A stretch of DNA of 64,000 nt from Maribacter arcticus. Its GTDB lineage: Bacteria; Bacteroidota; Bacteroidia; Flavobacteriales; Flavobacteriaceae. Of the stretch, positions 12,025-27,037 are shown piece after piece. The notes beneath the pieces are model-generated. The model did no database searches. It was not told the DNA's origin and saw nothing but the letters and a program-made list of their open reading frames with translations. Every line of letters begins with the position of its first letter. Position 1 is the stretch's first letter. The translations under genes and the position numbers were made by a program. The stretch spans positions 422,985-486,984 of the forward strand of contig NZ_FUYL01000002.1 of the NCBI RefSeq assembly GCF_900167935.1, given 5' to 3'.

Positions 12025-12292
12025 ATGAAAGATATTCAATCAAAAAACCCATATAACGGCGATATATTATAAACGTATTCTAAAGATACGGAAAGTACTA
12101 TTACTACCAAATTAGATAAGGCATTGTCCATACAGACTTCATGGGCCAACATGCCAAAACAGGAAAGATCCGAACTACTTACCAAAGTAGCAGATTTACT
12201 TTTAGACAGAAAAGTGGAATATGCCGAGCTAATACCAAAAGAAATGGGTAAACCTATTTTACAAAGTATTTCAGAAATAGAAAAATGCCCAT
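12025..12292 (+). pseudogene. Aldehyde dehydrogenase (succinate-semialdehyde type) N-terminal fragment
   Basis: Translation from the ATG at 12025 gives KDIQSKNPYNGDIL, then an in-frame TAA at 12070, and continues with SWANMPKQERSELL and YAELIPKEMGKPI, ending in EIEKC. This is the first 90 or so residues of an NAD(P)-dependent succinate-semialdehyde dehydrogenase. The catalytic and most of the NAD-binding regions are absent. At about 12289-12293 the sequence switches, in another frame, to a nirD fragment. The TAA probably replaced GAA or a similar codon after the gene was already dead. The mix is best explained by a deletion joining two genes. Confidence 0.85.
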
Positions 12293-12511
12293 TGGTACGC
12301 TTGTCAAAATCTTTGTTCGCATAAAATGGAAATGGCACTTTCAAGAGGAATAATCGGGGAACAGCATATGGAAGCAAAAGTTGCCTGCCCATTACACAAA
12401 AACACCTTCTCTTTGAAAACGGGTAAAAATTTGAATGGAAGTTTAGATGCAATTGCAACGTATCCTGTAAAAATAGAAGATGGCTTTGTGTATGTTGGCT
12501 TTTCTGAATAG
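12293..12511 (+). pseudogene. nirD: NirD (nitrite reductase small subunit) C-terminal fragment
   Basis: In the frame ending at the TAG at 12509, the sequence from 12293 reads WYACQNLCSHKMEMALSRG and continues with KVACPLHKNTFSLKTG and IATYPVKIEDGFVYVGF. This is the Rieske-like C-terminal two thirds of NirD, the small subunit of NADH-dependent nitrite reductase. The N-terminal part and any start codon are lost at the junction with the aldehyde dehydrogenase fragment. The ATG at 12326 lies inside the domain and is not a natural start. The following genes, DUF4202 and siroheme synthase, are common companions of nirBD in Bacteroidota. Confidence 0.85.
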
Positions 12512-12532
12512 CTTTGACCAAAGACTAAAGGA

Positions 12533-13166: not shown

Positions 13167-13751
13167 ATGGAAAGGAATGAGCTTTACCCAGTTTTTTTAA
13201 AAGTATCTAACCTTCATATTTTAATAGTTGGCGGAGGCAATGTTGCCCTTGAGAAATTGACTTTCTTGTTAAAATCAAGTCCGAATGCTCAGGTTGAAAT
13301 GGTCTCGCCCATGTTCAGGGAAGAAACGATTAACCTAGCCAATAAATTCAATATTAAAATGAATGTGGCACCTTATAATGCATCTTATTTAAAAGGCAAG
13401 CATATGGCAATAGCAACAACCGATATTGTTGCAGTAAATGAGCAAGTATACCATGATTGTCGAGAAAAACAAATTCTTGTAAACGTTGCTGACAATCCGC
13501 CATTTTGCGATTTCTATATGGGTGGCATTGTAACAAAAGGCAATGTAAAAGTGGCTATCTCTACCAACGGACAATCACCTACTACTGCTAAACGATTACG
13601 ACAATTTTTTGAAGATGTGATACCAGAAAATATCGATGATCTTGTAAAAAACCTCAACGAATATCGAAAGACCATAAAAGGTGATTTTGAGGAAAAAGTA
13701 GAAACACTAAATGAGTTTACTAAAGGGCTAGTGAACAAGAAAAAGGACTGA
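13167..13751 (+). CDS. Siroheme synthase: precorrin-2 dehydrogenase/sirohydrochlorin ferrochelatase (CysG N-terminal type)
   Basis: The 194-residue protein has an N-terminal Rossmann motif, ILIVGGGNVALEKLTFLL (about residues 12-29), then VNVADNPPFCDFYMGGIV and VAISTNGQSPTTAKRLR, which are signature blocks of Met8/SirC/CysG-N. It should oxidise precorrin-2 with NAD+ and insert Fe2+ to make siroheme, the cofactor of nitrite and sulfite reductases. Since nirB is absent and nirD broken in this window, it may now serve only sulfite reductase. No uroporphyrin methyltransferase domain is attached. Confidence 0.9.
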   Translation: MERNELYPVFLKVSNLHILIVGGGNVALEKLTFLLKSSPNAQVEMVSPMFREETINLANKFNIKMNVAPYNASYLKGKHMAIATTDIVAVNEQVYHDCREKQILVNVADNPPFCDFYMGGIVTKGNVKVAISTNGQSPTTAKRLRQFFEDVIPENIDDLVKNLNEYRKTIKGDFEEKVETLNEFTKGLVNKKKD

Positions 13752-13783: not shown

Positions 13784-13803
13784 CTTAAGAATTTCTTTAG
13801 ATA
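13784..13803 (+). promoter_or_regulatory. Response-regulator direct-repeat box 1 (before the regulator gene)
   Basis: Two CTTWA half-sites start exactly 11 bases apart (CTTAA at 13784, CTTTA at 13795, the second followed by GATA). They lie 20 bases before the ATG of the OmpR-family regulator. The same arrangement precedes four other genes in this cluster, which suggests autoregulation by that regulator. Confidence 0.65.
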
Positions 13804-13823
13804 GGGAGTTTAAATTTATAGTT

Positions 13824-14498
13824 ATGAAAATTCTAATCGTAGAAGACGAAAAAGCTCTGCTGCAATCTATCGCCAGTTATTTGGAGAAAGATGGGAATGT
13901 ATGCGAGACCGCATCTACCTATGAAGATGCTCTTTATAAAATTGACCTTTACGAATACGACTTGTTAGTTTTAGATATTAATTTGATAAATGGTAGTGGT
14001 TTAGACATTCTCCATTTATTAAAGAAAAATAAAAAAGAAACCGCTACCATTATAATTTCTGCGAATAACTCCTTAGACGATAAGTTAAAAGGGCTCGATT
14101 TAGGGGCAGATGATTACCTGACAAAGCCTTTTCATTTGGCCGAATTGAACTCAAGAATTAAAGCAGTACTACGAAGAGGAAAATTTGGGGGCACAGAACG
14201 GTTAGAGTTTAATGAAATCTTAATTGATACTAGATCAAGAACCTCTTATATTAAAGATAAAGCAATGTCGCTTACTCGTAAAGAATATGATTTGCTTTTG
14301 TTTTTCATCACCAATAAAGGAAGGGTTCTTTCTAAAGAAATTATTGCCGAGCATTTATGGGGTGATCATAGTGATATGGTCGATAATTACGATTTTATCT
14401 ATGTTCACATTAACAACCTTCGCAAAAAATTGACCGATGCCGGTGCAAAATATATTAAAACCGCCTATGGTAGCGGTTATAAATTTATGGAAGACTAA
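13824..14498 (+). CDS. OmpR-family response regulator
   Basis: The 224-residue protein has an N-terminal receiver domain with acidic residues in KILIVEDEKA, the phospho-acceptor Asp51 in LVLDINLINGSG and the conserved Lys in DYLTKPF. A C-terminal OmpR/PhoB winged helix (LTRKEYDLLLFFITNKGRV ... YIKTAYGSGYKF) follows. The partner kinase starts 3 bases after its stop, so they form one operon. Winged-helix regulators of this kind bind direct repeats spaced by about one helical turn, and the five 11-bp-spaced boxes in this cluster are its most likely targets (inference). Confidence 0.93.
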   Translation: MKILIVEDEKALLQSIASYLEKDGNVCETASTYEDALYKIDLYEYDLLVLDINLINGSGLDILHLLKKNKKETATIIISANNSLDDKLKGLDLGADDYLTKPFHLAELNSRIKAVLRRGKFGGTERLEFNEILIDTRSRTSYIKDKAMSLTRKEYDLLLFFITNKGRVLSKEIIAEHLWGDHSDMVDNYDFIYVHINNLRKKLTDAGAKYIKTAYGSGYKFMED

Positions 14499-14501
14499 CT
14501 A

Positions 14502-15764
14502 ATGGCCGAACCGACGAAGAAGATAAAATTACTGCGAAAGACCTCTAAAACATTTCTATGGATTAGTCTTATTTTAATGGTTTTCAGTACTATCGGGCTT
14601 TATTTTTATGTTCGAAATCTTTTACAAAATGAGGTAGAAGAAGAACTTAGATCCACTGAAGCACGCATTGAAAGTTCAATTTCTGGGAACAATCCTATTT
14701 ATCAACTAGCGCCTATGGTTGAAGTGGAAACCGTTTCTAATCTAGGGGCTGAACATTTGAAGGATACATTGATTTTTGACCCTTCTCAAAATGAAATAGA
14801 AGAGTTTCGTGAGCTAATCACCTTTTCTAAAATTAATGACCAAAATTACCGCATAACGGTACGTGCACTTATTGTAGAATCGGAAGATATTTTGATTGCC
14901 GTAGTAATTTCGTATCTCATTGTCATTTTGTTCGTGTTCATTTTCCTTTTCTATTTGAATAAATCAAGAACTGAAAAATTATGGAATCCGTTTTTTAAGA
15001 ATTTGGAACAGATGAAGCTTTTTTCATTGACTTCTGAAACTCCGATATCATTAATGGACAGTGACATTTTAGAGTTTTCTGAACTCAATACAGAAATAAC
15101 CATGTTGACAGATAAAGTTCGCGCAGATTATAAAAACCTGAAACAATTTACAGAAGATGTTTCCCATGAACTTCAAACTCCTTTGGCTATAATTCAGGCT
15201 AAAGTAGATACCATTATAAATGGCGAGGCCCTTAATGATTTACAATTTGAACAATTATCATCCATTCAATACGATATTCAACGCCTAAAACAATTAAACA
15301 AAAAGCTTGGCCTTATTTCCAAAATTGAAAATGACCAATTCACCAATATAAGTCCGTGTAACTTAAACCATATTCTAAAAGATAGAATTGAAAATCTATC
15401 TGAACTTTATCCGTCAGAAATACTATTTGAAAGCAATGAAGATGTTGTTCTTTTAATGGATGCCCATCTTGCAGAAGTTCTTTGCGACAACTTACTTTCA
15501 AACGCCATAAAATACAGCTTACCCAATACGCCAATAGTGATAATTCTAGAAAAAGATTCACTCTCTGTTCGGAACAAAGGCATACGCGCCATATTAAAAC
15601 CAGACCAATTGTTTCAACGATTTTACAAAGAGTCAGATGAAGTAAAGTCTACCGGACTAGGGTTAGCCATTGTAAAAAAGATATGTGATTTATATGGCTT
15701 TCAACCTTCCTATAGGTATTCCAATAACGAACATCATTTTACCATTTCATTACCAAAACAATAG
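14502..15764 (+). CDS. Sensor histidine kinase
   Basis: The 420-residue kinase has two membrane helices (about residues 17-40 and 128-151) around a small periplasmic sensor of about 85 residues, then the HisKA H-box DVSHELQTPLAI with phosphorylatable His222. The N-box CDNLLSNAIKYS and the G-box STGLGLAIV belong to the HATPase domain. There is no HAMP motif that I can recognise. It is translationally close to the OmpR-type regulator and must be its partner. The signal sensed is unknown; the neighbouring envelope and lipid genes suggest an envelope cue. Confidence 0.93.
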   Translation: MAEPTKKIKLLRKTSKTFLWISLILMVFSTIGLYFYVRNLLQNEVEEELRSTEARIESSISGNNPIYQLAPMVEVETVSNLGAEHLKDTLIFDPSQNEIEEFRELITFSKINDQNYRITVRALIVESEDILIAVVISYLIVILFVFIFLFYLNKSRTEKLWNPFFKNLEQMKLFSLTSETPISLMDSDILEFSELNTEITMLTDKVRADYKNLKQFTEDVSHELQTPLAIIQAKVDTIINGEALNDLQFEQLSSIQYDIQRLKQLNKKLGLISKIENDQFTNISPCNLNHILKDRIENLSELYPSEILFESNEDVVLLMDAHLAEVLCDNLLSNAIKYSLPNTPIVIILEKDSLSVRNKGIRAILKPDQLFQRFYKESDEVKSTGLGLAIVKKICDLYGFQPSYRYSNNEHHFTISLPKQ

Positions 15765-15768
15765 AGTT

Positions 15769-15788
15769 CTTAAAACTATCTTTAGATT
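15769..15788 (+). promoter_or_regulatory. Response-regulator direct-repeat box 2 (before the TonB receptor gene)
   Basis: CTTAA at 15769 and CTTTA at 15780 are spaced by exactly 11 bases and followed by GATT. The 20-base unit differs from the core of box 3 at only two positions. It lies 33 bases before the chosen start of the receptor gene. Confidence 0.65.
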
Positions 15789-15821
15789 CTTACCCTATAA
15801 TTGCTCTCAAAAGTTAATTTT

Positions 15822-18239
15822 ATGCACAAGATTTTAATCGTTATACTGTTTTTTTCCTCCCTTACCAACGCATTTTCTCAAAGTTCAGTAAATGTTACCG
15901 GCCAATTACGTGATGCAAATACCCTAGAAAATTTAGCTTTCGCTAATGTTACGGTCCAAAACTCTACCGATAATTCTATGGTAACCGGTGCGATAACCGA
16001 TGACAATGGACGTTTTGAAATTTTAGGCCTGTCCACAGGAAAATACACCTTACTATTTTCATTTATAGGATATGAAACGGTAGAAAAACCGCTTATCGCT
16101 GGCGGATTAAACAGTGTCTTCGACCTAGGGCAAATAGCATTACAGCCAAGTGCAGAACAATTGAATGAAGTACAGGTGGTTGGGCAAGAAGCTACTACCA
16201 ATAGCGACCTCAATAAAAAATCATTTAATCTCGATAATAATATTGCCCAAGCAGGTGGTTCTGTACTAGATGCCATGAAAACTATGCCTGGGGTTACGTT
16301 TGACCAAGATGGAAAAGTAGTTTTACGTGGTAGTGATAAAGTGGTGGTACTCATTGATGGCAAACAAAGTAGCTTAACCGGTTTTGGTAATCAAAAAGGT
16401 TTGGCTAACATCCCAGCGTCCAACATTGAGAAGATTGAAATCATCAACAATCCATCGGCAAAATATGATGCTAACGGTTTTGCCGGAATCGTCAATATTA
16501 TCTACAAAAAAGAAACTCAAAAAGGTTTAAATGGTGATGTAGGCCTTTCTTTCGGACTTGGTGCACTGGGCAAAAGAAGACCAGACACCCCTACTGATTT
16601 AGGTAGTTTTTCAGTTAATCCCAAACTAATTCCTAGTCTAAATCTTAATTATAGAAAAGGGAAACTCAATTACTTTCTACAGTCAGAATTTATAGTTCAA
16701 GAAGCTTTACCCAACAATGAATTTACGACTAGAAATTATGATGATGATCGCAATATTATTTCTCAAGTACCAGAGAACAGAAAGCAATTTCGTTCTATCA
16801 TCAATGGCGGAATTGACTATAACTTAGATGACAACAATAGCTTTACGTTCTCTGGTTTATATGACCGAGAACGGCATATAGATACTTCTCAAGTTGCTTT
16901 TATAGATTTGAATACCAATACTAGAAATCGATTTTATAATTGGCAAGAAGAAGAGGTTACCCGTTACATTAATGCCGCAGTTAATTATCGACATTCATTT
17001 GAACAACCCGGTCATACCTTAAGTGCCAATGCTCAATATACCCAAGGCCTAGAAGATGAAACCTATTCATTAAACGATAGTTCGGCCGTTCGTGTGGGGA
17101 GAGACAAAACCAATATAAAAGCTATAGAAAATACCACTAGTTTATCTTCAGATTATGTAAAACCGCTGAGTAATGGTAGGCTAGAACTTGGCGCGAAACT
17201 TCGCATTCGAAGACTACCTGTAGATTATATGATTACCCCAGGTAATGAATCTATTATTTATCCTGGACTTGGCTCTTTTTCCGATTGGGGAGAAAATTTA
17301 TATGCGGGTTATATCAATTACCTTCTAGAGAAAGAATTCTATGATATTGAAGCGGGATTAAGAGCCGAACAGACTGATGTTTTTTATGACTTAGACCCAG
17401 CGAACACATACTACCCAAACAATGATAAGTACGACTATTTCGAGCTTTTCCCTAGTGCTCGTTTTACCTATAAACTAAACGAGCATAATAAAATATCAGC
17501 ATTTTACAATCGACGTATCGATAGACCAGGTGAACCAGAATTACGTGTGTTTCCTAAATATGATGATCCAGAATTACTGAAAGTTGGTAACCCTTATTTA
17601 CGCCCTCAATTTACAGATGCCTTTGAAGTGGCACACAAATATTCATGGAATTCTGGCTCGTTATTTTCAGCTGTGTACCACCGAATTATACAAGATCAAT
17701 ACATGCGTATTTTCAGTATCGATGATTCGAACCCTAATTACGATATCGTAAACAAAATCTATCAAAACACAGGCAGAGCTACAAATACGGGATTGGAGTT
17801 GTTGGCTAGTCAAGACCTTACCCAAAATTGGAGCCTTTCAAGTACGGTAAACTGGTACTCAAATGCTATTGATGAATATGAAGGCACCGTGCTTTTCCCT
17901 TTTGTTCGGCCTTTTACTATTGAGGCTTCTACCGCAAATGCATGGAATGCCAAACTTACTTCAGAACTAAGTTTACCCAATGAATTTACTTTTCAATTGA
18001 CCGGTGTTTATTATTCGGATAAAAACATTCCTCAAGGGAAAGAATTGGCGCGTTCTTCTGTAGATCTTGGTGTCAAGAAAAACCTATGGAACAAAAAAGC
18101 AGAGCTCACCTTTTCTGCTACCGATATATTCAACCGTTTTGGTATAAGGCAAGAAGTTCGAAACGAAGGATTCACCGCAACCTATCATAATTATTTTGAG
18201 ACCCAGTTGTTTAGATTAGGCTTTAAATATAAAATTTAA
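15822..18239 (+). CDS. TonB-dependent receptor / outer membrane beta-barrel family protein
   Basis: I start at the ATG at 15822, which gives a clean signal peptide (MHKILIVILFFSSLTNAFSQ) and about 805 residues. A carboxypeptidase-like regulatory domain (about residues 22-105, NVTGQLRDANTLENLAFANV) comes first. A plug domain follows with GGSVLDAMKTMPGVTFDQDG and VLRGSDKVVVLIDGKQ, and then a long beta-barrel ending in an aromatic C-terminus. No SusD gene follows, so it is not a classical polysaccharide-utilisation pair. These OMP_b-brl_3 receptors often import metals or peptides or respond to envelope stress. Box 2 and the upstream two-component genes suggest joint regulation. Confidence 0.88.
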   Translation: MHKILIVILFFSSLTNAFSQSSVNVTGQLRDANTLENLAFANVTVQNSTDNSMVTGAITDDNGRFEILGLSTGKYTLLFSFIGYETVEKPLIAGGLNSVFDLGQIALQPSAEQLNEVQVVGQEATTNSDLNKKSFNLDNNIAQAGGSVLDAMKTMPGVTFDQDGKVVLRGSDKVVVLIDGKQSSLTGFGNQKGLANIPASNIEKIEIINNPSAKYDANGFAGIVNIIYKKETQKGLNGDVGLSFGLGALGKRRPDTPTDLGSFSVNPKLIPSLNLNYRKGKLNYFLQSEFIVQEALPNNEFTTRNYDDDRNIISQVPENRKQFRSIINGGIDYNLDDNNSFTFSGLYDRERHIDTSQVAFIDLNTNTRNRFYNWQEEEVTRYINAAVNYRHSFEQPGHTLSANAQYTQGLEDETYSLNDSSAVRVGRDKTNIKAIENTTSLSSDYVKPLSNGRLELGAKLRIRRLPVDYMITPGNESIIYPGLGSFSDWGENLYAGYINYLLEKEFYDIEAGLRAEQTDVFYDLDPANTYYPNNDKYDYFELFPSARFTYKLNEHNKISAFYNRRIDRPGEPELRVFPKYDDPELLKVGNPYLRPQFTDAFEVAHKYSWNSGSLFSAVYHRIIQDQYMRIFSIDDSNPNYDIVNKIYQNTGRATNTGLELLASQDLTQNWSLSSTVNWYSNAIDEYEGTVLFPFVRPFTIEASTANAWNAKLTSELSLPNEFTFQLTGVYYSDKNIPQGKELARSSVDLGVKKNLWNKKAELTFSATDIFNRFGIRQEVRNEGFTATYHNYFETQLFRLGFKYKI

Positions 18240-18249
18240 TGAAAACCAC

Positions 18250-19005
18250 ATGAAGTCCCTAAACAAAGTTGCCCAGATTACTTTATTGTTTTGGTTAATG
18301 AAAATCGTTGCCACTACGTTGGGTGAAACCTTAGGAGATTTCATTGCGCAAACTTTAGATTTAGGATACACGGTGGGCTTACTCATCACCTTTGCTTTTT
18401 TTGGTATTGTTTTAGTAATTCAATTAACCCGAAAAAAATACGTGCCAATTTGGTTTTGGCTTGTTATTATAGCCACTACAACCTTGGGCACCGAAATATC
18501 TGACTTTATTGACCGTAGCTTACATCTTGGGTATACTTGGGGTAGTATTGTTTTATTTATCGGTCTTATAATATCACTTTATCTGTGGTACAAAAAATAC
18601 AATAATCTAGAAGTTTACCCCATAGCCGAAAGAAGTAAAGAAACGTATTATTGGATTGCTATATTATTCTCGAATAGCTTGGGGACCGCTTTTGGGGATT
18701 ATCTAAGTGATGTAATCGGATTTAGTTATCTCCTTGGGGCAATGGTAACCGCAGGTATTATTATTCTAGTTGTCTTATTACATTACTTTACCAAAATTAA
18801 CCAGATTTTACTTTTCTGGATTGCCTTTATTTTCACAAGACCTTTTGGGGCAACCTTTGGCGATTTCTTGACCAAACCACTAGAAAAAGGAGGTCTCGAT
18901 TTAGGAACGCTTACAGCTTCCCTGATTTCTATAGTTCTTATGGCCGTTTTAATTTTCCTTTCTCATAAAAGACTTCGAGCCATTGAGGCCCCATTAACCC
19001 ACTAA
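18250..19005 (+). CDS. COG4705-like four-repeat membrane protein
   Basis: The 251-residue integral membrane protein is built from four repeats of about 60 residues. Each has a helix with a [T/S]-x-LG-x-x-[F/L/I]-[G/S]-D-[F/Y] motif: TTLGETLGDF, TTLGTEISDF, NSLGTAFGDY and RPFGATFGDF. This matches COG4705 membrane-anchored proteins of unknown function. It begins 10 bases after the TonB receptor stop and is very likely cotranscribed. The repeated conserved acid in each membrane segment suggests ion or metal transport, which is inference. Confidence 0.75.
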   Translation: MKSLNKVAQITLLFWLMKIVATTLGETLGDFIAQTLDLGYTVGLLITFAFFGIVLVIQLTRKKYVPIWFWLVIIATTTLGTEISDFIDRSLHLGYTWGSIVLFIGLIISLYLWYKKYNNLEVYPIAERSKETYYWIAILFSNSLGTAFGDYLSDVIGFSYLLGAMVTAGIIILVVLLHYFTKINQILLFWIAFIFTRPFGATFGDFLTKPLEKGGLDLGTLTASLISIVLMAVLIFLSHKRLRAIEAPLTH

Positions 19006-19173
19006 AATTCAATAGGTAGGATATTGAATCGAAGCTTTAGTAATTCAATGCCTTATAACTATCTCGCTTTGAAATAAAAAGGAATTATTTCTGTACTTGT
19101 AGGCGCCAAAACTTTACCTATGCTGGCATTTTCTTCAATTGAAAATTAGTTGCGCTAAAAGACAAAAGGCTCA

Positions 19174-19203
19174 CTTTAGATTTCCTTAAAACCTTCTTTA
19201 GAT
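19174..19203 (+). promoter_or_regulatory. Response-regulator direct-repeat box 3 (triple, before the PepSY-like gene)
   Basis: Three half-sites lie in tandem at exactly 11-base steps: CTTTA at 19174, CTTAA at 19185 and CTTTA at 19196. The first and last are each followed by GATTT. It is the longest array of the set and lies 45 bases before the PepSY-like start. Confidence 0.7.
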
Positions 19204-19247
19204 TTAGAGGCTAGTTTTGACTAATAATCCTAAAATCATTAGAAATC

Positions 19248-19709
19248 ATGAGTAAAATAAAATTATTAGGAACCCTAGTTCTTGCGGTAATTATTGGGTC
19301 GGGCATTTATGCTTTTGGATTCAATAGTGAGGTGCCACAAAAAGTAAAAGCTGCCTTTACCCTGAAATTCCTTACCGTAAAAAAGGTAAAATGGGATAAG
19401 GAATCGGATACGGAATGGGAAGCTGAATTCAAAATTAAGGGCGTTGAATATTCTGCAAACTTTTTAGAAGATGGTACGTGGCAAGAAACCGAGCACGAAA
19501 TCAAGAAAAGTGATATTCCAGAAAACATAAACAATATTTTGAATTCAGACTTTAAAGGGTATAAAATCGAGGAAGCAGAAATTTCAGAAACTATAAATGG
19601 TTCGGTGTATGAATTTGAACTAGAGAAAGGTGAAGAGGAATTAGAAGTTGTTCTTGACTTCAATGGAAAATTGATCAAAAAAGAACTAATAGAAGAAGAT
19701 ATTGATTGA
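19248..19709 (+). CDS. PepSY-like (DUF2874-type) periplasmic protein
   Basis: The 153-residue protein has a signal peptide (KIKLLGTLVLAVIIGSGIYAFG) and two related halves. Each half carries a K-x-W/Y-[acid]-x-[D/E]-x-E-W/Y-E-[A/F]-[E] pattern (VKWDKESDTEWEAEFK; then SVYEFELEKGEEELEVVLDF). This fits the PepSY-like family (beta-lactamase inhibitor-like fold) common in Bacteroidota and often controlled by a neighbouring two-component system. The exact role is unknown. A strong terminator follows, and box 3 precedes it. Confidence 0.75.
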   Translation: MSKIKLLGTLVLAVIIGSGIYAFGFNSEVPQKVKAAFTLKFLTVKKVKWDKESDTEWEAEFKIKGVEYSANFLEDGTWQETEHEIKKSDIPENINNILNSDFKGYKIEEAEISETINGSVYEFELEKGEEELEVVLDFNGKLIKKELIEEDID

Positions 19710-19745
19710 TGTTTTTTAATGATTGGTGAATTGAGTGTTTATTTG

Positions 19746-19779
19746 AAAGTGTTCGAAATTTAAATTTCGAACACTTTTT
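19746..19779. terminator. Palindromic terminator after the PepSY-like gene
   Basis: AAAGTGTTCGAAATT is followed by its exact reverse complement and then a T run. The perfect long palindrome could end transcripts from either direction. Confidence 0.85.
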
Positions 19780-20136
19780 CTACAAATCACCACTACTTTA
19801 AAATTCCAAAACATTCTTTTTTCCTTTACCTATAAATAGATTCCAAAACCAATAATCTGTTTCAAATCACCTTATTCAAGGCCATGATAAAGTGAGCCTT
19901 TTCCCTCTCACCCTTTTTAATCATTGGAAATTATTCGCGATTTAAGTTGATAATAAACTACTTATAACAGATTTGATCAAGTGCTTTAAAAGTGACTATT
20001 TAGATAACGAACATCCGATTTTTAGAACAATTTCGACCTGCTTATGTCTTGAACATTCTTCATACTATATGCCAAAAAATAACACTTAAATAGTCGCATC
20101 CTACTCCATAAAATTGAACAAAAATCTCAAAATCAT
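19780..20136. other. Intergenic stretch without a gene
   Basis: I see no ORF with coding character here. The end must contain the promoter of the first PAP2 gene. A degenerate relative of the direct-repeat box occurs near 19984-20006 (CTTTA then ATTTAGATA), but the spacing is 14, not 11, so I do not count it. Confidence 0.4.
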
Positions 20137-20706
20137 ATGAAATTTATTTCCTTATTAATTTTCCTCTTCCTATTAAACATGAGCTTTTCACAGCAAAAAG
20201 ACACTACGCGGGAAATTAGAATGGAGACCCATATCCAAAACATAGGAGATTACGCTCAATACGCCCCATCAGCAGTTTCTTTGATTACCATTCTTGCTAA
20301 AAAAGACAAAGAAGGTTTCTGGCAATTAAGTAAGTCTTTAGGCACCAACTTAACAGCAACATGGATTCTTAAATATGCTATAAATAAACCAAGGCCAGAA
20401 GGTAGAACAGACGGCCATGCTTTTCCTTCGGGCCATACCTCCTTCGCTTTTCAAGGAGCTTCATTTTTACAAAAACGATATGGGTGGAAATATGGTGTGC
20501 CGGCTTATTTGGTTGCTGGTTTTGTTGGCTATAGTCGATTAGAAGGTGTAAATGACAGACATGATGGTTGGGATATTCTTGCTGGTGCCGCAGTGGGGAT
20601 TGGTAGCACCTATTTATTTACAACCCCTTATTTAGAGGAACATTTTGAGCTTAGTTTTGATAGCGGTAATGGTTCTTACGCCATGGGTATCGTTTACAAG
20701 TTTTAG
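20137..20706 (+). CDS. PAP2 superfamily phosphatase, paralog 1
   Basis: The 189-residue protein has a signal peptide (FISLLIFLFLLNMSFSQ) and three PAP2 motifs: KYAINKPRP (C1), FPSGHTSF (C2) and SRLEGVNDRHDGWD (C3). It likely removes a phosphate from a lipid or isoprenoid phosphate on the periplasmic side of the inner membrane. It is a close paralog of the gene at 24588, but its C3 motif has seven residues between SR and the catalytic His rather than the usual five. Candidate substrates are phosphatidic acid, PG-phosphate, lipid A phosphate or undecaprenyl pyrophosphate. I cannot choose between them. Confidence 0.88.
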   Translation: MKFISLLIFLFLLNMSFSQQKDTTREIRMETHIQNIGDYAQYAPSAVSLITILAKKDKEGFWQLSKSLGTNLTATWILKYAINKPRPEGRTDGHAFPSGHTSFAFQGASFLQKRYGWKYGVPAYLVAGFVGYSRLEGVNDRHDGWDILAGAAVGIGSTYLFTTPYLEEHFELSFDSGNGSYAMGIVYKF

Positions 20707-20776
20707 ATACAAACGATGGGTTAGGTAGCAGTATTTATTGTAATTTCAATAGCGTAATTATGCTAAATAACGTGAT

Positions 20777-21475
20777 ATGAATACATTTATCAGTAGTATC
20801 TCTCAGCAAGAATTTCCAAAGAGCGAGCAAGTTTTTGGTAATACAATAAGAAAATCAATTTTTGATGTAATTCTAAATGACTACCCTAGTTTCAATAAAA
20901 AAAGTTCTATTTCAATTGCCGAACTAAACCTATACCGCCAAAAGTATCTTTCTAGTTATTTGGTTAAAGAGGCAGGCGAACTTTCGCACTTAGAAGAAGA
21001 TGTTTTAAAAACATTGAATGATCATGAAATCATCTCTGAAAATGTAAAAGACACCTCGAATGATTTTAATTTCGGTCAACAACTCGCAGATAAGGTGGCA
21101 ACATTCGGTGGTAGCTGGAAATTCATCCTACTTTTTGCCTTTATAATTTTTTTCTGGATTTCAGCGAATATCATTTTATTGGCGAATAAAGGTTTTGACC
21201 CCTACCCATTCATTCTATTAAATCTAATTCTTTCTTGCTTAGCGGCTTTACAGGCCCCTGTAATTATGATGAGTCAGAATAGGCAAGAAGAAAAAGATCG
21301 TGAACGTGCAAAACAAGACTATATGGTCAATTTAAAGGCCGAGCTTGAAATTCGTACCCTCCATGAAAAAATAGACCATTTAATAATTCACCAACAGCAA
21401 GAATTATTAAATATTCAGCAAATACAGGTAGAAATGTTAGAAGATATTATGAAACAAATACATCCCAAAAAGTAA
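20777..21475 (+). CDS. DUF1003 family membrane protein
   Basis: The 232-residue protein has a cytoplasmic N-terminal part, then QLADKVATFGGSWKFILLFAFIIF, a second membrane helix with PYPFILLNLILSCLAALQAP, and IMMSQNRQEEKDRERAKQDY, the diagnostic block of DUF1003. The C-terminus is a predicted coiled coil (LHEKIDHLIIHQQQELLNIQ). The family has no established function. It sits 70 bases after the first PAP2 gene and before the LTA-synthase-like gene, within the lipid cluster. Confidence 0.88.
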   Translation: MNTFISSISQQEFPKSEQVFGNTIRKSIFDVILNDYPSFNKKSSISIAELNLYRQKYLSSYLVKEAGELSHLEEDVLKTLNDHEIISENVKDTSNDFNFGQQLADKVATFGGSWKFILLFAFIIFFWISANIILLANKGFDPYPFILLNLILSCLAALQAPVIMMSQNRQEEKDRERAKQDYMVNLKAELEIRTLHEKIDHLIIHQQQELLNIQQIQVEMLEDIMKQIHPKK

Positions 21476-21565
21476 GTTTAGTCTACCCTGTTGTAATACA
21501 ATCGAAATTGTTTACATTAATCAGGAAGATAATCTAGCTTTTGAAAAATTATTGTTTTCATGTAA

Positions 21566-21588
21566 AACTTTAAATTCTCTTAAGAATC
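21566..21588 (+). promoter_or_regulatory. Response-regulator direct-repeat box 4 (before the LTA-synthase-like gene)
   Basis: CTTTA at 21568 and CTTAA at 21579 are spaced by 11 bases. The full 23-base segment is identical to 24528-24550 before the second PAP2 gene. It ends 42 bases before the ATG at 21631. Confidence 0.7.
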
Positions 21589-21630
21589 TAGATATATATT
21601 TAGGGTCGAACTACCCTAATTACATTTTAT

Positions 21631-23616
21631 ATGTGGACTCTTCTGTTTCCAAAACGCTTTTCACTACTTAAAGCCTTTGTATTTCTTTTTATTTGTATTT
21701 CATTTTTAGTACGGCTTACCTTTTTCATTTGGGATTTTTCTGAGGTAGATGCCCATATAGGCACTATGGTTCGAACGTTCATTACTGGGCTATTTTATGA
21801 TATAGGAACGCTCTCCCTATTCTTAATGCCCTTCTTGGTTTATCTATTAATTTTCCCCAAGAAATGGTATGGTTCTTTGGTCGATAAAATTAGCACTTGG
21901 TTTGGCTTTTTCTTAGCCGTACTTATCATCTATTTCTCCTTTTTTGGAGAGTTTACTTTTTGGGATGAATTTCAACGCCGCTTTAATTTTATTGCGGTAG
22001 ATTATTTAATTTATACCTATGAGGTTGTCAAAAATATTAATGAGTCTTATCCACTTCCATTACTTATCGGCTCTTTACTTTCTTTAGTAGCGATCACTCT
22101 TTTTGTAGTACATAAAAGAAAGTTATTTCAGAAGACATTTGAAAATGAAACTACCTTTAAACAACGGCTATTGGCTACTCTGCCATGGGTTGCCATATGC
22201 CTTGTATTCGGCTTATTCATAAACAATGATCAGGCAGAATGGTCTAAGAACAGATATAATAATGAACTATCAAAAGCTGGTATTTATTCCTTTTTTGCCG
22301 CCTTCCGCAATAATGAACTGACCTATTCTGAATTTTACACCACAATACCTCAAAAAGATGCTTTTACTGCTCTTAAAAAGCAATACGTACCCTATGGAGA
22401 TACCTTCGTTGATGCAACCAAAAATGAAATATATAGAACAATTCATTCGACAGACACCACAGGAACGGTGCAAAAACCCAATGTAATTTTCATCTGTATT
22501 GAAAGTTTGAGCGGTAAATATTTGAACAGTTTAGGGGGTGATCAGAACATCACTCCGGTATTAGATAATCTTGCCAACCAAAGCCTTTTCTTTACCAATT
22601 TGTATGCAACGGGTACACGCACGGTTAGAGGAATGGAGGCCATTACATTATCAATACCGCCTACCCCAGGCCGAAGTATTTTGAAAAGAAAGAATAACAC
22701 TGGCCTTTTTACTATTGGCGAAGTATTTAAAGAACAAGGCTATGACCGTAATTTCTTTTATGGTGGCGATGGTTATTTTGATAATATGAATACGTTCTTT
22801 GGAGGCAATGGCTTTAATATCGTAGATCGTGGCCGTGGCTTTTTATTGGATGCAAATAACACGGCAAAAAGAACGAATATCGAAGATGATGAAGTTACGT
22901 TTGAAAATGCCTGGGGCGTTTGTGATGAAGATATTTATAACAAAGTACTTAAGGAAGCAGATTTGGCACACCAAAACGGCAAGCCCTTTTTCGATTTTGT
23001 AATGACCACTTCGAATCATAAACCTTTTACCTACCCAGAAGGTAAAATAGATATTCCTTCAGGTACAGGAAGAAATGGTGCAGTAAAATATACGGATTAT
23101 GCAATCGGTGCGTTTTTAGAACAAGCAAAGACTAAACCTTGGTTTAGTAATACTGTATTCGTTATTATGAGTGATCATTGTGCAAGTAGTGCCGGTAAAT
23201 GGGAATTAGATGTGGCCAACTACCACATTCCCGCACTTATTTATAATTTAAAGAACTTAAAGCCTTCTAAAAACAATACGCTTTGTTCTCAGATAGATGT
23301 TTTTCCAACTTTGTTCTCTACCTTAGGGTGGGAATATGACAGTAACCTTTTTGGCATGGATATCCTTAAAATGGGTCCGAAAGATGAACGTGCACTAATT
23401 GGTAATTACAGAAAATTAGGCTATTTGAAAGACGATAAAGTATTGGTGCTTGGTGATGGAGAAACCGTTAATTTTTACGAATGGAATGCTATGGACAATA
23501 GCCTACAAAATACTCCTATGAATGAATCGTTTAAAAATATAGCCATCTCAAACTATCAAGTAGCAGATGAACTTTACCATAATGGGGGGCTCCAATTGAA
23601 ATCACTTAATCAATGA
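21631..23616 (+). CDS. LTA synthase family protein (sulfatase-fold phospho-headgroup transferase)
   Basis: The 661-residue protein has five N-terminal membrane helices (about residues 10-190) and a large extracytoplasmic sulfatase/alkaline-phosphatase-like domain. FICIESLSGKYLNSLGG starts the domain and carries the metal-binding Glu. TGTRTVRGMEAITLS (about 326-340) holds the likely nucleophilic Thr. VFVIMSDHCA contains the conserved DH metal ligands. Relatives move phosphoglycerol or phosphoethanolamine headgroups from phospholipids to acceptors and release diacylglycerol. The diacylglycerol kinase gene overlaps its stop by four bases, which supports such a DAG-producing reaction. The acceptor in this Gram-negative is unknown. 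Confidence 0.88.
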   Translation: MWTLLFPKRFSLLKAFVFLFICISFLVRLTFFIWDFSEVDAHIGTMVRTFITGLFYDIGTLSLFLMPFLVYLLIFPKKWYGSLVDKISTWFGFFLAVLIIYFSFFGEFTFWDEFQRRFNFIAVDYLIYTYEVVKNINESYPLPLLIGSLLSLVAITLFVVHKRKLFQKTFENETTFKQRLLATLPWVAICLVFGLFINNDQAEWSKNRYNNELSKAGIYSFFAAFRNNELTYSEFYTTIPQKDAFTALKKQYVPYGDTFVDATKNEIYRTIHSTDTTGTVQKPNVIFICIESLSGKYLNSLGGDQNITPVLDNLANQSLFFTNLYATGTRTVRGMEAITLSIPPTPGRSILKRKNNTGLFTIGEVFKEQGYDRNFFYGGDGYFDNMNTFFGGNGFNIVDRGRGFLLDANNTAKRTNIEDDEVTFENAWGVCDEDIYNKVLKEADLAHQNGKPFFDFVMTTSNHKPFTYPEGKIDIPSGTGRNGAVKYTDYAIGAFLEQAKTKPWFSNTVFVIMSDHCASSAGKWELDVANYHIPALIYNLKNLKPSKNNTLCSQIDVFPTLFSTLGWEYDSNLFGMDILKMGPKDERALIGNYRKLGYLKDDKVLVLGDGETVNFYEWNAMDNSLQNTPMNESFKNIAISNYQVADELYHNGGLQLKSLNQ

Positions 23617-24500
23617 TCCACATACATTTTATAGTAAATCCGATAGCAGGAAATGGCCACACGCCATTGACCAAAGATGAGTTGCAATCCTATTTTATTA
23701 GCGGTGTGCATGATTTGACTATAAAGATTAGCGAGTATAAAGCGCACGCTACGTTATTGACCCAAGAATCTGTTTTAGAAAAAGCAGATATCATTGTTGC
23801 TTGTGGTGGTGATGGCACCATAAATGAAGTAGCCACCTGTTTAATCGGCACCAATATTGCCTTGGGTATTGTACCTATGGGTTCTGGTAACGGATTAGCA
23901 TCTAATCTTAAAATTCCGAAGAATAGGCGAAAGGCCTTAGAAATCATTAGAAATAAACATAAAGAGCATATTGATGTTGGGAGTATCAACGGCCGCTATT
24001 TTTTTAGCAATACAGGCGTAGGTTTTGATGCCCGTTTAATAAAGCATTATGAATCTTCTGAAAAAAGAACACTTTTAGGCTATATCAGCGCCTGTGCCAT
24101 CACTTTTAGAGACATTAAAAAGAACGAACCATTATCTATTGGTATCGATGGGGAAACCCCTATGATTAACCCATTTATCGTTTTAATTTCTAATTCTAAT
24201 GAAATGGGCTATAAATTGAGTTTAACACCAAAAGCTTCCCTTCAAGATGGTAAGCTCGACGTATTGGTCATCAAAAAAATTAACCGATTAAAAATGTTGT
24301 GGTTGGGAATTTTAATCCTAATTAGAAAAGTACATTGGTTAAAAGAATCGAAAAGCTTTCAGACCTCAAAATTGCACCTAACCCGTAATCATTCCGATTT
24401 TTTTGATACTCAAGTAGATGGTGAACACAACAGAATAGACACCAACCAACTCGATATTTCTATTTTAGAAAAATCATTGTGTGTCCTAACCGCAAAATAA
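23613..24500 (+). CDS. Diacylglycerol/lipid kinase (YegS/BmrU family)
   Basis: The 295-residue protein starts with HFIVNPIAGNGHTPL and has the nucleotide-binding motif VACGGDGTINEVA (about residues 66-78), then GIVPMGSGNGLASNL, a classic DAG-kinase catalytic-domain set. It should phosphorylate diacylglycerol to phosphatidic acid in the cytoplasm. Its ATG overlaps the stop of the LTA-synthase-like gene (ATGA), so the two are translationally coupled, and together they would form a recycle loop for DAG. The C-terminal half has a normal length. Confidence 0.92.
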   Translation: MIHIHFIVNPIAGNGHTPLTKDELQSYFISGVHDLTIKISEYKAHATLLTQESVLEKADIIVACGGDGTINEVATCLIGTNIALGIVPMGSGNGLASNLKIPKNRRKALEIIRNKHKEHIDVGSINGRYFFSNTGVGFDARLIKHYESSEKRTLLGYISACAITFRDIKKNEPLSIGIDGETPMINPFIVLISNSNEMGYKLSLTPKASLQDGKLDVLVIKKINRLKMLWLGILILIRKVHWLKESKSFQTSKLHLTRNHSDFFDTQVDGEHNRIDTNQLDISILEKSLCVLTAK

Positions 24501-24527
24501 TTAATGCAATAACACCATATTAAGTAC

Positions 24528-24550
24528 AACTTTAAATTCTCTTAAGAATC
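24528..24550 (+). promoter_or_regulatory. Response-regulator direct-repeat box 5 (before PAP2 paralog 2)
   Basis: CTTTA at 24530 and CTTAA at 24541, with 11-base spacing, lie in a 23-base segment identical to box 4. It ends 37 bases before the start of the second PAP2 gene. Confidence 0.7.
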
Positions 24551-24587
24551 GCATTGTATTTTTTTTAAAATTCAAACACAAGACGAT

Positions 24588-25148
24588 ATGCCTTCTTCTA
24601 TCGAGCCTAAAATTCTGTGCAGAAAACTTCTAATTCTTTTCATACTAGCTACTACTTCGATTTTTTATGGTCAAAATAAAACCATACAAAATTCTGGCGA
24701 TGTGTTACTATTCGCTATGCCTGCAACGGCACTTACAGGTAGCCTAATAGCCGGTGATTATGAAGGTTCATGGCAATTTGCCAAAGGCTTTGCCCTTAAT
24801 CAAGCAGTTACTATCGGACTCAAATATGCGACCGATAAAAAAAGACCTTATAATAATGGAGATAGGGCCTTCCCTTCTGGGCATACCTCAACTACATTTC
24901 AAAGTGCTGCTTTTATTCAAAAAAGATATGGGTGGAGCTATGGTATACCCGCTTATATTCTCGCAGGCTATACCGGTTATAGTCGTATAGAAGCCCAAAA
25001 ACATGATGGGTGGGATGTTTTGGCAGGTGCGGTTGTCGGTATCGGTAGCGCCTATATTTTTACCACTCCCTACCAAAGAGAACATATGCAGCTGAGTTTT
25101 GCCAATGACGCAGATAGTTATTCGCTCGGTTTTGTCTATAAATTTTAA
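24588..25148 (+). CDS. PAP2 superfamily phosphatase, paralog 2
   Basis: The 186-residue protein has a long N-region and hydrophobic segment (LLILFILATTSIFYGQ) as signal. The motifs are KYATDKKRP (C1), FPSGHTST (C2) and SRIEAQKHDGWD (C3, canonical spacing of five residues). It is similar to the product of 20137-20706 over its whole length, including the C-terminal YxLGFVYKF-like beta end, so the two arose by duplication. The direct-repeat box upstream suggests it has its own inducible promoter although it follows the DAG kinase by 87 bases. Confidence 0.88.
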   Translation: MPSSIEPKILCRKLLILFILATTSIFYGQNKTIQNSGDVLLFAMPATALTGSLIAGDYEGSWQFAKGFALNQAVTIGLKYATDKKRPYNNGDRAFPSGHTSTTFQSAAFIQKRYGWSYGIPAYILAGYTGYSRIEAQKHDGWDVLAGAVVGIGSAYIFTTPYQREHMQLSFANDADSYSLGFVYKF

Positions 25149-25207: not shown

Positions 25208-27037
25208 CTATATATTTTGAAGTGGTCCTTTTACAAAATACATACTCATAAGACCCTTATTCTTTACTTCAATCTGTCCTCTAAATTCACAATCAAAAAT
25301 ATCCTTTACTAAATTATAGGTGTTTTTACTAATGTTGATTTTACCGGAATCAGAAAAAGTTTCCATACGTGAAGCCACGTTTACCGTATCGCCCCAAATA
25401 TCATAAGAGAATTTTTTGCTGCCCACTACCCCAGCAACTACAGGTCCTGTATTGATTCCTATACGAACGTTAAATGAAAAATCGGTTTCCTTTTCAGACT
25501 TGGCTTCCTCTACAAACTGTAGTATCTCAAATGCCGCCTTTACCATTTTTATAGCGTGATCTTCTATTGGGAATGGCAAACCTCCTGCACACATATACGC
25601 ATCTCCAATCGTCTTAATTTTTTCCAATCCATATTTTTCGATGATATCATCAAAGGCCGTGAAATAATACCCTAATCGGGTGACCAAAAGCTCTGGATCA
25701 ACGTGTTCCGAAGCTGCGGTAAAGGCCTCAAAATCGGTAAACAAAACTGAGACCGATTCGAACTTCTTAGCCTTGACCTTTCCAAATTCCTTTAACTCTC
25801 GTGCGGTTTCCTCTGGTAAGATATTGACTAACAGCCGCTCTGAGCGGGCCATTTCCTTTTCGATAATAGCATTGGTACGTTTAGTGAACACATTGCGCCT
25901 GTACAAACCAATAGCTAACAGAATAATCAAGAACAACGCAATGCCAGTGGCGATGGTCACTACTTTTTGGGTTTGTTTTTGCTGGTTGGTGAGATCTAGT
26001 TCTGCCTTGAACTGTGCTTGTTCAGAATTTCTACGAATATCCGCCATTTGTTGTACGGCGGTGAGGTTGACCACACTATCTCTAAAAACAATATACTTAC
26101 GATAATAGTTCAAGGAAGCGGAAGCATACCCAGTACGTTCATATAGTTCTGACAATTTTAAATAGGCACTGCTTATCCGTACTTTTAACCCATACTGTTT
26201 GGCGAGGTCCAAGGAGCGTAAGGCATAGTCAAACGCACCGTCCCAATCTTCCTTATCGGCATAGATATCCGACATATAGTTTAGGTAGGTCGTAATGGGC
26301 CTGTAATCTCCTAACTCTTCCAATATGGCAACGGCCTCCTCAATATTCTCCTCCGCTTTGGTAGGTCTTCCCTTTTGTGCATAGGCAAGACCCTTATTCC
26401 CTAAATTATACGCCAGAGCAATTTTATTTCCCAATTTTTCGAATATCGGGCCAGACTGGTTGAAGTACAGCAATGCGGAATCTGGCTTGGACCATTCCAA
26501 ATAGGTATCCCCTAAATTTTCCATGGCTACGGCATAGTTTAACGTATCCTGTTCCGTTTTAAAAATGGAAATGGCATCAGAATAGTATTGTCTCACATTT
26601 TCCCTATTGTTCATGCCAGCATAAACAGCTGCAATGGCAGTATACATGATGGCCACCTGGTTTTTTTCGGTATTTCTATCCGTAATTTCCAAGGCCTTAA
26701 AATAACTGTCCAACGCACCACTTAAATTTCCTTTTTGTTGCAACGCATTCCCGGTCTGTAAGTGGGAATTAAATATATATTTAGTGGAATCTTGCCGTAT
26801 GGCTTCCGTCATCAACGAATCGCTATATGCCAAAATACGATCAGGATCGGGAAGGTAAACCGTTATTCTCGATAAAATTTTAAGTTTAAGCGCTGGATCA
26901 TAGTTGCCTGATTCATACACCTGAATCAAGCTATCGGCAAGTGCTTCATTTTGACCAAAACTGGGCATCCCCTTGACCATAAGGCACAGCAACAAGACTA
27001 CTTTTGCCCATCCATTACATTTAAAAAATAACTTCAT
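25208..27037 (-). CDS. TPR-containing membrane adenylate cyclase (class III)
   Basis: The 609-residue protein has a signal peptide (about 1-28), several TPR-like helical repeats in the periplasmic region (about 40-330, for example ALDSYFKALEITDRN and IALAYNLGNKGLAYAQKGR), and a membrane helix with ATGIALFLIILLAIGLYRR. It ends in a class III cyclase domain. Metal-binding Asp residues are in LFTDFEAFT and TIGDAYMCAGG. The Lys in EKIKTIGD and the Asp in YDIWGDTVNVASRM are the ATP-selecting pair, so cAMP is the likely product. It is the last gene of an operon with two secreted paralogs. Confidence 0.9.
   Translation of the reverse strand: MKLFFKCNGWAKVVLLLCLMVKGMPSFGQNEALADSLIQVYESGNYDPALKLKILSRITVYLPDPDRILAYSDSLMTEAIRQDSTKYIFNSHLQTGNALQQKGNLSGALDSYFKALEITDRNTEKNQVAIMYTAIAAVYAGMNNRENVRQYYSDAISIFKTEQDTLNYAVAMENLGDTYLEWSKPDSALLYFNQSGPIFEKLGNKIALAYNLGNKGLAYAQKGRPTKAEENIEEAVAILEELGDYRPITTYLNYMSDIYADKEDWDGAFDYALRSLDLAKQYGLKVRISSAYLKLSELYERTGYASASLNYYRKYIVFRDSVVNLTAVQQMADIRRNSEQAQFKAELDLTNQQKQTQKVVTIATGIALFLIILLAIGLYRRNVFTKRTNAIIEKEMARSERLLVNILPEETARELKEFGKVKAKKFESVSVLFTDFEAFTAASEHVDPELLVTRLGYYFTAFDDIIEKYGLEKIKTIGDAYMCAGGLPFPIEDHAIKMVKAAFEILQFVEEAKSEKETDFSFNVRIGINTGPVVAGVVGSKKFSYDIWGDTVNVASRMETFSDSGKINISKNTYNLVKDIFDCEFRGQIEVKNKGLMSMYFVKGPLQNI

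Follow-up and report, generated by a model that had tools for sequence, protein, structure and literature searches.

To our knowledge, few regulators of envelope genes in the Bacteroidota have a known binding site. The described box that comes closest to the one considered here is that of PmrA/BasR, given for Salmonella as a YTTAAK repeat with a 5-bp gap and for Acinetobacter as TTTAAG-N5-TTTAAG in the accessible part of one report (PMC10927774), and for Klebsiella as the half-sites CTTAAT-N5-CCTAAG in that of another (PMC3973317). In Vibrio, the available portion of a further paper describes a two-component system that, with dgkA-eptA, controls colistin resistance, both genes being needed together, and it also reports PAP2-dgkA-eptA and pepSY-eptA-dgkA neighbourhoods (PMC12064563). 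In Capnocytophaga, according to the part of the source at hand, LpxE and EptA raise polymyxin resistance (PMC4730577). Here we analyse 64,000 nucleotides of Maribacter arcticus DNA (NZ_FUYL01000002.1, 422,985-486,984 of the forward strand; hereafter the window, to whose positions the coordinates refer), in which a cluster with an OmpR/PhoB-type response regulator gene very likely constitutes a new regulon with a PmrA-like box, a direct repeat of the form CTTWA-N6-CTTWA that precedes five genes.

Like the window box, that of PmrA/BasR, as far as the accessible parts of those reports go, is a six-base direct repeat with a 5-bp gap (an 11-bp period) in the same frame, and in both cases the targets are, or would be, modifiers of envelope lipids. 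The two differ in the half-site, here CTTWARA, whose fourth base is more often T than A, in the TAnnTTTG promoter, in the kinase, PorY-like in the window, and in the transferase, which is LtaS/OpgB-like by best matches. An earlier note on this DNA had known of no description of the box; this has to be corrected in view of the closely similar box of PmrA/BasR. A literature search (titles and abstract openings, mostly of open papers) returned no description of this box itself. Riemerella anatipestifer is a flavobacterial relative. Its PhoP is likewise a two-component DNA-binding regulator with a genome-wide motif, most conserved as TTTAACA, but differs, in the part of the source available, by another half-site, 583 peaks and an ArcA-like motif (PMC9603813). 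The Vibrio rstAB-dgkA-eptA locus also has two-component genes beside genes for a lipid transferase and a diacylglycerol kinase, DgkA recycling diacylglycerol, but it belongs to another phylum and, in the portion available, has EptA and DgkA instead of the LtaS/OpgB-like and YegS-like enzymes of the window (PMC12064563).

Results

The five sites lie exactly where the earlier note had placed them, at 13784, 15769, 19174/19185/19196 (a triple), 21568 and 24530 (Table 1). Each reads CTTWA-N6-CTTWA on the + strand ahead of a + strand gene, and the 23 identical bases said to be common to the last two were verified on the sequence. The window holds eight matches to CTTWA-N6-CTTWA where 2.48 are expected, a number that none of 100 shuffles reached. 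Across the entire genome (4.21 Mb, 22 contigs) there are ten exact matches to CTTWAN6CTTWAGA, five of them in the cluster, and six for a backwards-pattern control; the other five exact matches are all inside open reading frames (ORFs). For an independent ranking we used a held-out matrix of 35 positions, built from 50 sites in 22 cluster regions outside the genus of the window; sites farther than 300 bp from any gene, and one HK-labelled site, were excluded. The five promoters took the top ranks of the window with 24.7-33.4 bits, the next window match having 12.5 bits and the maximum in 4.2 Mb of first-order random sequence (one strand) being 17.7 bits. If one mismatch is allowed in CTTWAN6CTTWAGA, the window count is 8 against 4.0 expected and five shuffles reach 8, a result that is weak alone and would suit repeats arising by chance or from an AT-rich background without function. 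Against the held-out matrix, and the period, spacing, orientation and co-occurrence tests described below, such an origin retains next to no probability, and we consider chance ruled out.

Among the other genomes of the genus, 4 of 18 have a regulator orthologue (at least 67% identity), and so do 21 of 396 other sampled genomes of the family; in each set one genome has two copies. The cluster set comprised 27 fetched regions plus that of the window, and all 28 carry at least one upstream site. On the cluster strand of these regions, 84 repeats at the 11-bp period stand no more than 250 bp upstream of a same-strand ORF, as against two on the other strand, so that the 28 clusters display head-to-tail half-sites at the period found in OmpR/PhoB-family regulons. 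The other spacings from N2 to N19 yielded 0-5 matches each on the cluster strand, with the exception of N17, whose 18 matches are explained by the 22-bp distance within triples. A site precedes the second PAP2 gene in 16 of 17 clusters, the transferase gene in 14 of 16, the TonB-receptor gene in 14 of 18 and the PepSY gene in 10 of 16; the corresponding figures are 2/9 for DUF347, 1/11 for the first PAP2 gene and 1/28 for the kinase. The box is conserved across about twenty related genera. Two outcomes that the earlier note had named as fatal to its proposal did not come about: in the scans run the motif was not as common in unrelated DNA, and the sites are kept before orthologous genes. One genome (G015) has two diverged cluster copies (L031 and L032), both boxed, and both of its regulators are 78% identical to that of the window.

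Of 77 promoter-proximal sites chosen by the repeat alone, 52 had TAnnTTT at a distance of exactly 27 bp from the start of the box; no other offset between 14 and 59 gave more than three, except for +14, at which the half-site itself is the match. TA stands at +27 in each of the five window promoters. The letter counts were made after dropping 7 of the 77 sites, which had no suitable TA at +27, so that 100% TA at this position is by construction, which the 52 of 77 is not. At the fourth half-site base T predominates (75 and 80% in the two half-sites), CTTAAG and CTTAAA also occurring, and no separate -33 element is visible in the aligned promoter-proximal sites. In the part available of a study on Flavobacterium psychrophilum, the -7 box of the primary sigma factor reads TAnnTTTG and spans -12 to -5 (PMC9723704), and therefore the half-sites would start near -39 and -28. 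The predicted layout is of the activator type (class II), with the box in place of the -33 element. Such a class-II layout is known for PhoB. A regulator acting at the boxes mainly as a repressor would be compatible with their overlap with the core promoter (-39 to -22), where a bound protein can block the polymerase. However, a fixed 27-bp spacing without a separately conserved -33 element is needed for activation by sigma contact and not for repression, and for this reason we favour activation and regard a mainly repressing role as unlikely.

The full promoter pattern, CTTWAN6CTTWAGAWTN7TANNTTT, occurs in 31 of 397 family genomes, its backwards control giving one hit. A genome was scored as regulator-positive if it had a match at E 1e-78 or better among its best seven candidates, so that the negatives may include misses. 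By this measure 22 of the 27 regulator-positive genomes have the pattern, as against 9 of the 370 others (Fisher p 2e-24, relatedness ignored). A full recheck for the regulator covered these nine and four regulator-positive genomes; four of the nine have a regulator of 50-57% identity, four have the examined match inside an ORF, and the last is G399, to which we return below. A looser pattern gave 83 matches in 26 regulator-bearing genomes, against 15 for the control, with none in G318 and G150. For matches outside the clusters, the gene placement covers the 13 stretches that were fetched and leaves out, for example, G168, G127:C3, G015:C28 and the second of G178. In eight of them (L207, L208, L210, L212-L215 and L217) the site lies ahead of a gene for outer-membrane efflux, with one for membrane fusion next in line, as identified by Pfam OEP and HlyD in L208 and read from translations in the others, the second gene of L207 not being seen. 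In L209 one site precedes a PepSY gene and one another gene; the sites of L211 and L216 precede PAP2 genes, whereas those of L218 and L219 each fall within an ORF.

A second regulator clade (helix YSQIKN; the second regulator of L028, and L034, L035, L037 and L040), which includes a paralogue in the genus of the window, has TTCCCAT-N4-TTCTAGA before itself, with the same 11-bp period and 27-bp spacing as the window box, and in L035, L037 and L040 a box of this type with a poorer -7 box precedes a divergent PepSY gene. In genome G001 both kinds of regulator occur, separated by about 13 kb, and each has a box of its own. Since other helices thus stand mostly beside other half-sites, and given the G001 pair, it can be argued that each regulator reads its own box; the differences in half-site among paralogues point to direct binding by the regulator of the cluster. 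The boxes could also be real but bound by another OmpR-type regulator, that of the cluster having other targets, and related regulators are indeed many in the genome (a loose initial survey of G000 gave 50 candidates). Nevertheless, the box co-occurs with the cluster regulator and adjoins its gene, and the same-genus paralogue has a different helix and a different box, which makes binding by another regulator quite improbable.

The comparison was extended to 139 distinct regulators from 345 phylum genomes plus earlier loci; the named-genome scan gave mostly distant regulators among the matches listed, and L097-L105 of its 80 loci were used. In the scan of the regulators' own promoters the period, the half-site T and A and the -7 box were fixed, and the third and fourth letters were free. 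Sites were obtained for 18 of 30 Val-His regulators, with TT, TA or AA in 36/36 half-sites, for 17 of 18 Gln-His regulators, with TC in 34/34, for 7 of 29 Thr-His regulators, with TC in 8/14, and for 11 of 20 Ala-His regulators, with mixed letters, as well as for Ser-His (2/13), Asn-His (1/4), Ser-Gln (2/17) and Tyr-Gln (1/6) regulators. Several Ser-Gln and Tyr-Gln promoters have TTCCCAT-N4-TTCYAGA at the same period and mostly at the same offset. We tentatively suggest, without leaning to it, a phylum-wide PmrA-like family with one promoter grammar, half-sites at the 11-bp period and a TAnnTTTG -7 box at exactly +27, in which the middle letters of the half-site would be set by the recognition-helix residue equivalent to PmrA V192. 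Val would go with CTTWARA, Gln and mostly Thr with CTTCARA; Asn would go with CTACAAA and Ser with CTCCARA, as seen at only one promoter and two promoters, respectively. Two features of the data weigh against such a code. In a 54-row tree (composed of the window, L261, L301 and the rows whose site score was 5 or more, other regulators being left out), the Val-linked half-site rests on one clade, to which the distant, long-branched Bacteroidales row L101 belongs, and there is only one independent pair; moreover, the separate Val lineages G663 and G523 do not have the full promoter pattern. The proposal that Val determined CTTWA in independent events was accordingly not upheld.

The transcripts of the five window promoters are predicted to start near 13823, 15808, 19224, 21607 and 24569, about 12 bp past the TA of the -7 box, and the predicted leader of the response regulator transcript (13811-13824) is 1 nt. 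Of the 51 own promoters scored among the regulator homologues, 25 have the -7 TA at a distance of 11-15 bp upstream of the start codon, including those of 16/17 Gln-His and 5/6 Ala-His regulators; in this family, transcripts with no leader or almost none seem to encode many of the regulators.

The regulator scores 92 and 74 bits with the Pfam domains Response_reg and Trans_reg_C, the next gene having HisKA and HATPase_c, and its nearest solved structures are those of BasR/PmrA (135.0 and 134.8 bits). For PmrA, the accessible part of the structural report gives N188, N196 and R210 as base contacts and T187, V192 and H195 as hydrophobic contacts (PMC4660055). In the alignment with the regulator V192 and N196 are kept, H195 is replaced by Asn and N188 is ambiguous. 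With 160.2 bits against a cut-off of 330 in the PmrA equivalog model NF007928, and higher scores with the CtrA and PhoB models, the regulator cannot be taken as a PmrA equivalog. The kinase reaches 410 bits in the PorY-family model NF052314 (cut-off 350). A PorX-type partner consists of a receiver and a PglZ domain. The neighbouring regulator gene does not encode one, having only Response_reg and Trans_reg_C (PorX elsewhere in the genome was not sought), and the cluster was therefore discarded as a PorXY pair. The best solved match of the transferase is VP1736 (3LXQ; 278 bits), which we take to be a Vibrio protein, and the structures of lipoteichoic acid (LTA) primase and LTA synthase follow far behind (44-46 bits). 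The first PAP2 and DUF1003 genes have no box of their own among the matrix matches in the window.

Table 1. Genes, repeat boxes and predicted -7 boxes of the M. arcticus cluster (window positions).
Feature	Position	Strand	Remarks
Box, response regulator gene, CTTAAGAATTTCTTTAGA	13784..13801	+	24.7 bits, out-of-genus matrix
-7 box of response regulator promoter, TAAATTTA	13811-13818	+	predicted
OmpR/PhoB-type response regulator (Response_reg + Trans_reg_C)	13824..14498	+	recognition helix Y-V-H-I-N-N-L-R-K-K
Sensor histidine kinase (HisKA, HATPase_c)	14502..15764	+	above NCBIfam PorY-family cut-off
Box, TonB-receptor gene	15769..15786	+	26.6 bits, out-of-genus matrix
-7 box of TonB-receptor promoter, TATAATTG	15796-15803	+	predicted
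TonB-dependent receptor, carboxypeptidase-regulatory-like domain (OMP_b-brl_3)	15822..18239	+	
DUF347 protein, after TonB receptor	18250-19005		
Triple half-site, PepSY-like gene	19174..19202	+	promoter-proximal pair at 19185, 32.2 bits
-7 box of PepSY-like promoter, TAGTTTTG	19212-19219	+	predicted
PepSY_like (PF11396) protein	19248..19709	+	
First PAP2 phosphatase gene and DUF1003 gene	20137..21475	+	within cluster
Box, LTA-synthase-like gene	21568..21585	+	33.4 bits, out-of-genus matrix
-7 box of LTA-synthase-like promoter, TATATTTA	21595-21602	+	predicted
Sulfatase-fold, LtaS/OpgB-like transferase	21631..23616	+	under curated NCBIfam OpgB and LtaS cut-offs
YegS/DAGK-family lipid kinase	23613..24500	+	start overlaps transferase stop
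Box, second PAP2 gene	24530..24547	+	33.2 bits, out-of-genus matrix
-7 box of second PAP2 promoter	24557-24564	+	predicted
PAP2 phosphatase (second)	24588..25148	+	weak LpxE match, E 0.006

More members of the regulon were sought in the M. arcticus genome and none was found with confidence. The sixth match to the longer pattern (L219) is inside an ORF, and allowing one mismatch added 13 matches (19 in total, the backwards control giving 13), 11 of the added ones inside ORFs. One of the two intergenic ones (L245) is weak and stands 271 bp ahead of a receiver-domain ORF. In the same genome, L242 (G000:C8:487871-487904) is an intergenic, near-perfect box with a -7 box and one mismatch; no + strand ORF of at least 60 amino acids follows it in the fetched stretch, and a small gene or RNA is possible.

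As for the surroundings of the cluster, the adjoining gene at 25208-27037 (-) encodes TPR repeats and an adenylate/guanylate cyclase catalytic domain (Pfam, 192 bits) and has no box. On the other side, translations read by eye suggest an aldehyde dehydrogenase remnant with an internal stop and a nitrite reductase small-subunit remnant at 12028-12515, followed by a siroheme-synthase-like gene at 13167-13751.

Discussion

The favoured reading, which we hold to be probable, is that the regulator of the cluster activates itself and four target promoters through the box. The phosphorylated response regulator would bind head-to-tail at CTTTAAA / CTTTAGA, 11 bp apart and at about -39 to -22, and would recruit RNA polymerase to a TAnnTTTG -7 box beginning exactly 27 bp after the start of the repeat; its own operon and the four target promoters would in this way be switched on (class II, the repeat box replacing the -33 element). 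The TonB-linked receptor, the PepSY-like protein, the LTA-synthase/OpgB-like transferase, the lipid kinase and the PAP2 lipid phosphatase would then remodel the envelope, with an efflux operon as an additional member of the regulon in relatives, and the lipid kinase would recycle the diacylglycerol released by the transferase. An LtaS/OpgB-type transferase leaves diacylglycerol, which the kinase would return to phospholipid synthesis. The parts of this model that we infer are binding, activation, phosphorylation and the signal, envelope stress or cationic peptides. The autoregulated envelope regulon proposed in the earlier note is supported by the conservation next to orthologues, the co-occurrence with the regulator, the class-II layout and the other half-sites of the paralogues. 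Beyond what that note described, the present analysis found the -7 box at a fixed +27 bp, a box that related genera have kept, and its resemblance to that of PmrA.

Several observations weigh against this reading or its PmrA-like part. A strict box lies ahead of the regulator gene in only 10 of 27 clusters, the regulator promoters of many others having a weaker second half-site (ATTTAGA and similar). In G399 the site precedes a PAP2 gene and no regulator was detected, and five regulator-positive genomes (G150, G318, G366, G277 and G283) do not have the full promoter pattern; of these, looser boxes are present within the clusters of G150, G318 and G366, G277 has one box elsewhere, and in G283 no box with a promoter was seen. 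With respect to PmrA, the base contact R210 is replaced by Tyr, the lead of BasR over the next structure (1kgs, 132.3 bits) is narrow, and the NCBIfam CtrA and PhoB models give 174 and 166 bits against 160 for PmrA, all below their cut-offs.

The predicted targets, a transferase with a lipid kinase, a PAP2 phosphatase and, in relatives, efflux genes, suggest remodelling of envelope lipids. That the regulon answers envelope damage, such as that caused by cationic peptides, is an evenly balanced proposal by analogy, made because of the colistin resistance linked to dgkA-eptA in Vibrio and the polymyxin resistance linked to LpxE and EptA in Capnocytophaga.

In this cluster the regulator, its predicted box, the promoter layout and the targets can be read together. 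If the favoured reading is true, PmrA-like control of envelope-lipid enzymes would extend to another phylum. Moreover, if the letters of the half-site vary with the recognition helix, it would become possible to predict operators for many two-component systems that are as yet uncharacterised; the family would then have a natural recognition code readable from sequence alone, and with it the targets of many such systems in the phylum might be foretold.

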